From: an uncultured Clostridia bacterium
GTDB lineage: Bacteria; Bacillota; Clostridia; Oscillospirales; Acutalibacteraceae
Assembly: GCA_945787805.1 (NCBI GenBank)
Contig: CALZID010000015.1
Location: 1 to 45,936, forward strand
Direction: 5' to 3'
DNA: 45,936 bases
The stretch's first letter is position 1, and every line of letters starts with the position of its first letter. The position numbers and the translations under genes are program-made. The notes beneath the pieces are model-generated. The model was not told the origin of the DNA. It saw nothing but the letters and a program-made list of their open reading frames with translations, and did not search any database. Shown here piece after piece: positions 2,320-3,815 of this stretch.

Positions 2320-2356
2320 TTGACTTTTTACATGCGGTTTGTTATAATTATAACAA
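2320..2356 (+). promoter_or_regulatory. Promoter with an 18-bp perfect palindrome on the -10 box
   Basis: TTGACT at 2320-2325 and TATAAT at 2343-2348 are spaced by 17 bp, a near-consensus sigma-A promoter. A perfect palindrome, TTGTTATAATTATAACAA, covers 2339-2356 and includes the whole -10 box. It is well placed to be a repressor operator. The gene directly downstream begins with an HTH domain, which makes autoregulation the simplest guess. Confidence 0.75.
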
Positions 2357-2381
2357 TGAATGATAAGGCAAGGGTACAGTT

Positions 2382-3815
2382 ATGTTGAACGGATTTTACT
2401 CAAAAAAAATAACTGAATTAAGAGATAAAAACAATATGTCCGTTAAAGAACTTGCTGACGGAACAGATGTGGATGAGCAAACTGTACTCTCTTGGGAAAC
2501 GGGAGAAAGTGTTCCCACCGCAGAGAATTTTTATAAAATGGCAAAGCTTTTCGGTGTGTCAATGGATGTATTTTTTGACGCTGAAGAGCATAAAAAATCC
2601 ATTGAAAAAATGAACGGAATGGAGTCGTTAAATCAGCTTTACAGAATCGGCTGCGGTCCGTCAAGCTCACACACAATGGGGCCCGAAAAGGCGTGTATTC
2701 TCTTTAAAGAAAAAAATCCGAATGCCGACAGGTTTAAAGCGGTTTTATACGGTTCGCTTGCAAAGACGGGTAAGGGGCACTGCACCGATAAGGTTATTGA
2801 AAACACATTGGCACCTACGCCTTGTGAAGTTGAATTTGACTGTCTGAAAAGCGATATCGAGCATCCGAACACAATGGATTTATCGGCTTTTAAAGACGGC
2901 GAACAGATTGATTTTATTCGGGTATTCAGCGTTGGCGGCGGCAGAATCGAGCTTGAAGGCAGTAAATCCGCAAATGAACCGATTGTCTATAAATTGAGCA
3001 CCTTCAAAGACATTAAAGCATATTGCAAAGAGAAAAAATATCGCTTATGGCAATATGTTGACGAAGTTGAAGGTGAATACATTTGGGATTATCTGCGTGT
3101 TGTCTGGAAAACAATGAAGGACGCAATCGAGCGCGGAATTGAAGACGAAGGAGTTCTCCCGGGCGGACTTGAAGTGCAGAAAAAAGCGAAATATCTTTAC
3201 AATATGGAGCATATAGGTGAGAGTGCAGAAACAAGAGAAAACCGAGAGGTTTGCTCTTATGCTTTTGCGGTAAGCGAGCAGAATGCGTCGGGCAACAGAA
3301 TTGTAACTGCACCGACCTGCGGTGCGTCGGGCGTTGTGCCGGCGGTGCTTTACTATATGCAGTTAAAGCACGGATACACCGACCGACAGATTTTAGAAGC
3401 ACTTGCAACAGCGGGGCTTATTGGTAATCTCATTAAAACAAATGCCTCAATTTCGGGTGCGGAATGTGGTTGTCAGGCAGAAGTCGGAACAGCTTGTGCA
3501 ATGGCTGCGGCGGCTCTCGGTGAGCTTTTCGGATTAAAAAGCGATAAGATTGAATATGCTGCCGAAATTGCAATTGAGCATCATTTGGGGCTCACCTGTG
3601 ACCCGATTTGCGGACTTGTGCAAATTCCGTGTATTGAGCGAAATGCGGTTGCGGCAATGAGAGCAATCAATGCGGTGAACCTGGCAAGCTTTTTAAGTGA
3701 AACAAGAAAGATTTCACTTGACAGTGTTGTTGAAACAATGAAAAAAACAGGGCTTGATATTCGGTCTGCTTATCGAGAAACAAGCGAAGGCGGTCTTGCA
3801 ACACTTAATATTTAA
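2382..3815 (+). CDS. L-serine dehydratase (Fe-S type) with N-terminal XRE-type HTH domain
   Basis: Residues about 8-65 form an XRE/Cro-type helix-turn-helix (KKITELRDKNNMSVKELA, then QTVLSWETGESVPTAENF). Residues about 80-477 are a one-chain L-serine ammonia-lyase: beta domain with GPSSSHTMGP at 92-101, then the alpha domain with TAPTCGASG (C312), SGAECGCQAEVGTA (C361, C363), HHLGLTCDPICGLVQ (C405, C409) and IPCIERNA (C416). Family enzymes convert L-serine to pyruvate and ammonia with an oxygen-sensitive [4Fe-4S] cluster in the cytoplasm. The catalytic part is about 400 residues, a little shorter than the roughly 450 of E. coli SdaA. The HTH fusion is the unusual part. Together with the palindrome on its own promoter it suggests an enzyme that also controls transcription (inference). 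The ribosome-binding site is weak (AAGG/AAGGG). The gene is monocistronic. Confidence 0.9.
   Translation: MLNGFYSKKITELRDKNNMSVKELADGTDVDEQTVLSWETGESVPTAENFYKMAKLFGVSMDVFFDAEEHKKSIEKMNGMESLNQLYRIGCGPSSSHTMGPEKACILFKEKNPNADRFKAVLYGSLAKTGKGHCTDKVIENTLAPTPCEVEFDCLKSDIEHPNTMDLSAFKDGEQIDFIRVFSVGGGRIELEGSKSANEPIVYKLSTFKDIKAYCKEKKYRLWQYVDEVEGEYIWDYLRVVWKTMKDAIERGIEDEGVLPGGLEVQKKAKYLYNMEHIGESAETRENREVCSYAFAVSEQNASGNRIVTAPTCGASGVVPAVLYYMQLKHGYTDRQILEALATAGLIGNLIKTNASISGAECGCQAEVGTACAMAAAALGELFGLKSDKIEYAAEIAIEHHLGLTCDPICGLVQIPCIERNAVAAMRAINAVNLASFLSETRKISLDSVVETMKKTGLDIRSAYRETSEGGLATLNI

Follow-up and report, generated by a model that had tools for sequence, protein, structure and literature searches.

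A clostridial family of Fe-S L-serine dehydratases fused to an XRE-type HTH domain, with a candidate self-operator that is absent from the lineage of the analysed window

Can an enzyme that breaks down serine also control its own gene? The question is raised by the gene at 2382..3815 on the forward strand of the window, the whole 45,936-nucleotide stretch of DNA analysed here, which is contig 15 of a 1.84-Mb clostridial genome. The gene encodes a protein of 477 residues from an ATG start (open reading frame and domain search). The first-pass annotation described a serine dehydratase fused to a helix-turn-helix (HTH) domain, with a palindrome on its own promoter, and proposed a one-gene feedback switch in which the HTH represses transcription. 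It placed the unit at 2320..3815; 2320 is the start of the -35 box, and the gene itself begins at 2382.

By sequence and predicted structure, the protein is a single-chain Fe-S L-serine dehydratase fused to an XRE-type HTH domain. The HTH occupies residues 1-65 (2382..2576), a linker follows at residues 66-79 (2577..2618), and the enzyme body comprises residues 80-477 (2619..3812), all on the forward strand. Pfam HTH_3 matches residues 12-64 (E 4.5e-13; 49.5 bits against a cut-off of 23), SDH_beta begins at residue 82, and SDH_alpha spans residues 230-473 (E 1.3e-78). The NCBIfam model sda_mono (TIGR00720) gives 393.8 bits, above its cut-off of 345.1. In the alignment with the L. pneumophila enzyme 4rqo, cysteines pair with C364, C406 and C417, which we take to be the Fe-S ligands; all 21 of the fusion proteins that were aligned share these three. 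In the AlphaFold model the helices of the HTH fall within residues 2-64, and the enzyme body comes after a stretch of low confidence at 67-76. The HTH fold is predicted with good confidence; confidence is low again for the C-terminal residues 459-477 and for two loops. A Foldseek search with the whole protein matches 4rqo (E 1.3e-25, TMq 0.69). With the HTH alone the E-values are weak (only 0.03-0.04); the rmsd is 1.0-1.4 Å over about 62 residues to the DNA-binding domains of SinR and P22 c2. The description of an XRE-type HTH and a complete enzyme in one polypeptide thus agrees with Pfam, TIGR00720, AlphaFold and Foldseek. The protein shares its whole enzyme body with the TIGR00720/4rqo enzyme and differs in the extra N-terminal HTH of about 65 residues and the linker. 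The fusion is the only SDH_alpha gene found in a search of the window genome.

The promoter of the gene consists of a -35 box TTGACT (2320..2325) and a -10 box TATAAT (2343..2348), both on the forward strand and separated by a 17-bp spacer, with 11 of 12 consensus matches. Shuffles lead one to expect 4.4 promoter-like sites, and the scan lists three in the window; the count by itself is therefore no evidence. The -10 box is covered by a perfect 18-bp palindrome, TTGTTATAATTATAACAA (2339..2356), as had been reported. No other perfect ungapped palindrome in the window reaches 16 bp. Sixty shuffles of the window gave 0.33 palindromes of at least 18 bp on average (maximum 2), and shuffling the 125-bp intergenic stretch 3000 times never gave one of 18 bp or more. 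Directly 5' of the fusion is a DUF2383-like gene (1822-2256; MIEQDTIKLLRECDAG...), named from a weak domain match. Between the two, at 2268-2312, is a GC-rich sequence with imperfectly inverted arms (GGGG...CCCC), after which comes TATTTTGTT; judged by eye, it may be a terminator of the upstream gene, and it is absent from the terminator-scan list.

The fusion is widespread in Clostridia, including many gut clostridia, as judged from homologue surveys in which a match beginning at residue 10 or before was called a fusion. The survey sets overlap. Fusions were found in 6 of the 11 genomes with a match in the genus (39 searched), in 23 of 90 in the order (394 searched) and in 12 of 46 in the class (391 searched); among the six genomes with a match in the phylum (398 searched), the sole fusion is the window's own. 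A quickly built tree of 88 enzyme domains requires 10 changes of the fused or unfused state, against 29 in shuffles. Four of these are forced by well-supported branches, and 35 forks of the tree are without resolution. Two homologues from the genus of the window, 87% identical, lack the HTH (L007 in genome G015, and L008 in genome G013, which is 9% contaminated). L007 retains the first nine residues and continues directly into the enzyme, as after an in-frame deletion; the HTH domain can therefore be lost.

Upstream regions were compared between 39 fusion and 49 unfused loci. The fusions leave out near-copies on the same contigs (L098, L100, L101, L106) and matches whose locus was not fetched (G262, G735:C9, G209), and include both members of the near-twin pairs L037/L038 and L046/L047. 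The unfused set leaves out loci with an unclear start or not taken (L044, L069, L105, L109, L135, L136), and L010-L019, L077-L089 and L143-L176 lie outside it.

A palindrome survey of these regions yielded a dyad, TCAACC-N3-GGTTGA. Scored as TCAAC-N5-GTTGA with up to two mismatches and within 150 bp upstream, it is present at 24 of the 39 fusions and at none of the 49 unfused genes (Fisher 1.1e-11, with kinship ignored); shuffles of the 39 regions gave 0.15 on average and never more than 2. The exact core CAAC-N5-GTTG is found at 19 of 39 fusions and again at no unfused gene. In 22 of the 24 cases the dyad begins 90-127 bp before the start codon, the others being L055 (-68) and L049 (-35). The tree offers only four independent, supported pairs that differ in the fusion; the dyad tracks the fusion in 2.5 of them on average and never goes the opposite way (sign test p ~0.25). 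Fifteen fusions are without the dyad, and five of these carry the canonical helix described below (L045, L048, L058, L073, L075). The dyad was also considered as an operator of the neighbouring gene and rejected as such: among the 22 loci examined, the gene next upstream is mostly a different one. L051, L052 and L056 have in common an upstream neighbour that looks lipoprotein-like from its first residues.

The dyad follows the recognition helix of the HTH. The helix A(V/I)SKWE occurs in 29 of the 39 fusions, 24 of which have the dyad; none of the 10 fusions with other helices does (p 4.7e-6, with only three helix changes on the tree). The association was also read in the reverse direction, from regions with a perfect TCAACC-N3-GGTTGA in genomes without a fusion match, of which the first 20 listed were taken. 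A plain XRE gene follows the dyad in 14 of them, with an AV(S/H)KWE helix in 14 of 14; the HMM used to spot these genes was built from fusions and thus favours that class. From dyad to proposed XRE start is 86-150 bp in 13 regions and 201 and 260 bp in L253, which has two sites. At the other 6 of the 20 regions this HMM found no XRE gene. In the forward direction, 12 XRE genes were chosen by similarity to the HTH of the window protein (L026 and L027 are near-identical). CAAC-N5-GTTG lies within 250 bp upstream of eight, against 0.03 in shuffles (maximum 1); one of the four genes that do not fit, L030, has an AVSKWE helix and no dyad within 250 bp upstream. Because reverse test, forward test and helix association point the same way, the dyad is assigned to the A(V/I)SKWE class of HTH, and the HTH half of the fusion very probably binds the promoter region of its own gene.

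The explanation that best accommodates these observations, to which we give a probability of roughly two in three, is that the family consists of trigger enzymes: Fe-S L-serine dehydratases whose XRE HTH, at the N-terminus, belongs to the AV(S)KWE class and would bind a dyad with the core CAAC-N5-GTTG, commonly TCAAC-N5-GTTGA, 5' of their own promoter in most members. The enzyme would thereby govern how much of itself is made, activation being the most likely mode, and serine or the cluster's state could plausibly gate this control, as the first-pass annotation had suggested. In the lineage of the window, the gene would have come to lie behind other genes, the dyad would have been lost, and the recognition helix would have drifted. 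In the window species the gene now has its own strong promoter, and the -10 box of that promoter sits in an unrelated palindrome, probably the target of another repressor. Support for a one-gene switch extends to the family, where the dyad tracks fusion and recognition helix, and not to the palindrome for which it was proposed.

Activation is suggested by the position of the dyad. Promoters were called automatically, and a distance from dyad to -10 box is available for 23 fusion promoters; in L049 the -10 box is upstream of the dyad. Between the end of the dyad and the -10 box are 43-45 bp in eight promoters and 52-54 bp in twelve, with outlying values of 32, 33 and 83 in three; shuffled spacers fall into the two bands in 1.9 of 24 cases (maximum 6). 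The two spacing classes are about one helical turn of DNA apart. With +1 taken to lie 12 bp beyond the first base of the -10 box, the dyad is centred at roughly -63 or -73, which is comparable to the positions occupied by class I activators such as CRP. The -35 boxes of the fusion promoters are often poor (TTTATA). Because of the spacing classes, the CRP-like position and the poor -35 boxes, self-activation is moderately favoured for the family, and self-repression is the less favoured mode and rather unlikely. Repression by the HTH of its own promoter, as originally proposed, is thus doubtful for the family, in which the dyad is upstream of the promoter in nearly all cases. In L049 the dyad is just downstream of the -10 box, which argues for repression in that species. 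The plain XRE promoters, counted without L253 and its two dyads, have 43-45 bp in 11 of 19, 55-56 bp in three and other distances in five, several of the promoter calls being weak. In promoters of the 52-54 bp class, for example L064-L068, GTTG(A/G) occurs at a fixed place after the -35 hexamer TTTATA; it is perhaps a second half-site.

The window copy itself departs from this pattern. Its helix (core DEQTVLSWE) reads TVLSWE instead of A(V/I)SKWE, and the best match to TCAACC-N3-GGTTGA has four mismatches; because helix and dyad are both wanting, it is not classed here as a working member of the predicted trigger-enzyme family. Nine of the ten fusions with a changed helix and no dyad are within 30 bp of, or overlap, the upstream open reading frame, and the window copy (125 bp) is the exception. 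The four closest fusions (L003-L006) are from the same genus and 84-88% identical to the window protein; they start 6, -4, -4 and -4 bp from the preceding gene, which in L003 is a DUF386 gene. The order in the L003 genome is DUF2383-like gene, DUF386 gene, fusion; in the window the fusion, with its own promoter, follows the DUF2383-like gene. It can be inferred that the window species lost the middle gene and gained a promoter. A DUF2383-like gene is thus 5' of the fusion in both genomes; a similar gene is 3' of the fusion in L061, which belongs to another family.

The HTH of the window lineage may by now be a relic, or an appendage with a structural role that has given up specific DNA binding, a reading to which we give nearly even odds. 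It would account for the changed helix, the missing dyad, the operon position of the sister genes and the existence of two close homologues that do without the domain (L007, L008). The domain is also evolving faster than the enzyme: in pairs within the window clade the HTH is 63-89% identical and the body 89-97%, with dN/dS of 0.07-0.28 (five pairs with finite dS) against 0.03-0.05. Dyad-bearing pairs have 78-97% against 79-97% identity and dN/dS of 0.02-0.12 against 0.03-0.08, some dS values being saturated. The epoxidase HppE, whose HTH_3-like domain is a Foldseek match, provides an earlier example of an enzyme that bears a domain of this kind; we know of no regulatory role for that domain. 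Against this reading stand a dN/dS well under 1 and a fold predicted with good confidence.

Whatever the HTH now does, the palindrome probably serves a different regulator, and the leading candidate, we infer, is the repressor Rex. In excerpts of PMC8457756, PMC9600882 and PMC5367854, the clostridial Rex box consensus is given as TTGTTAANNNNTTAACAA, and a limit of two mismatches is employed in published scans (PMC5367854, excerpt). The palindrome TTGTTATAATTATAACAA agrees at 12 of the 14 fixed positions and so falls within that limit. It shares with the Rex box, as given there, the length of 18 bp and the outer arms, and differs in an inner pair that is A..T in the Rex box and T..A in the palindrome. 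Rex, sensing NADH/NAD, would shut the serine dehydratase promoter by occupying a site that covers the -10 box. An equal match arose in only 6 of 2000 shuffles of the intergenic stretch, and the window genome encodes a Rex protein (PF06971; G000:C1:246146-246784). Boxes with 0-2 mismatches are found in 6 of 16 adhE-type upstream regions of the genus (AdhE being named from its aldehyde dehydrogenase domain and an 898-residue frame); two of these are perfect, and that of the window genome has one mismatch. Against this, sites with up to two mismatches are not enriched genome-wide (163 against 185 for the reversed control), exact TTGTTA-N6-TAACAA occurs once, as does its control, and before the putative acn-icd-rex operon of the window genome there is nothing closer than a 3-mismatch site. 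The two positions at which the palindrome deviates are inner bases related by symmetry, so its reader may be another protein that recognises palindromes. Rex is proposed tentatively, at somewhat less than even odds. At L054, an unfused serine dehydratase whose gene overlaps the upstream open reading frame, a Rex-like site (TTGTTAACTCAATATCAA) lies 125 bp before the gene and departs from the relaxed pattern at one position.

The first-pass annotation had the window HTH itself bind the palindrome and repress the promoter; operator and helix would then have changed together. The palindrome is exact and lies over the -10 box, the HTH is still under purifying selection (dN/dS as above), and with an altered helix a new operator is conceivable. 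However, the L003 fusion, which has the same helix core, has no site with up to four mismatches to the palindrome in the 3.5 kb upstream, and L004 and L006 have none with up to five; L005 has a 4-mismatch site at -488. Fusions that lack a palindrome at the promoter are what the annotation itself had named as contrary to its proposal; for this palindrome as such, L003-L006 are fusions of that kind. The related HTH class uses CAAC-N5-GTTG at a longer distance upstream, and the HTH-less L007 and L008 indicate that the domain is dispensable here. The proposal is accordingly improbable. As a conserved operator of the family, the palindrome was rejected: it is absent at L003-L006, and the family dyad differs from it in sequence and in place. 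A palindrome at a promoter beside an HTH gene need not be the site of that HTH.

At the loci that do have the family dyad, a separate AVSKWE-type XRE regulator could in principle read it in trans, since other genomes have plain XRE proteins of the same helix class adjoining the same dyad. The dyad is nevertheless absent from all 49 unfused genes, and where the HTH has been lost within the fusion clade the dyad is absent too. Among 29 fusion genomes, exact TCAACY-N3-RGTTGA is present as a single copy, at the fusion gene, in 14, a further point against a reader in trans. Three have it at the fusion and elsewhere, six elsewhere only and six not at all. The window genome is one of the six with sites elsewhere only; its single site, at C9:53308, is away from the serine dehydratase and looks coding from its translation. 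As background, 150 of 388 genomes of the order have a copy, so the dyad also occurs away from fusions; in the table of order genomes the reversed-dyad control seemed rarer (by look, without totals). Reading in trans is thus, in our estimate, even less probable than binding of the palindrome by the window HTH. Least probable is a terminator or RNA hairpin, suggested by a few dyads with long arms followed by T runs (L032, L043, L065) and rejected as the main reading, as the same sequence recurs behind differing genes at a fixed distance 5' of the -10 box, hence outside the transcript of that promoter, and an Rfam search at the dyads gave no family above threshold.

Few enzymes are known to regulate their own genes, and most of these come from model bacteria. 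PutA, BirA and NadR of E. coli are termed trigger enzymes in the part of PMC8249747 consulted, where PutA is described as having a single target, putA-putP. The fusion family, as predicted from its sequences, resembles these in that one protein would unite a metabolic activity with a DNA-binding domain directed at the promoter from which it is itself expressed. It differs in that the domain is XRE-type and the enzyme an Fe-S serine dehydratase, and in the site, which is upstream of the promoter, whereas PutA is described there as repressing. Autoregulated XRE-family regulators with upstream palindromes gave clear binding in 9 of 10 tested pairs (PMC12565409, excerpt). They share with the fusion family the HTH_3 domain and a palindrome upstream of their own gene; the effector half is an enzyme only in the fusion family. 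The main text of PMC12565409 has no match for TCAAC or GTTGA. Among the titles and abstract starts listed in the literature searches there is no description of an HTH-serine dehydratase fusion or of its dyad, which is no proof that none has been published.

The family could thus comprise single-target enzymes that activate their own genes from about -63 or -73 through CAAC-N5-GTTG, with serine or the cluster deciding whether activation occurs; in the window species the switch would have been dismantled and the gene passed to a redox regulator. This combined claim is put forward cautiously, as something short of an even chance. If true, it would tie the breakdown of serine in gut anaerobes to gene control and to an oxygen-sensitive cluster, in a form that can be tested and with a defined operator. 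A rule that relates helix to operator (SKWE helix, CAAC-N5-GTTG) would be useful for many uncharacterised XRE regulators. The outer bases of the site may follow the helix as well: five XRE genes with SRQ(S/A)(V/I)SKWE helices (L020, L021, L022, L025, L031) have GCAAC-N5-GTTGC and not TCAAC-N5-GTTGA, which hints at a code between helix and outer base.
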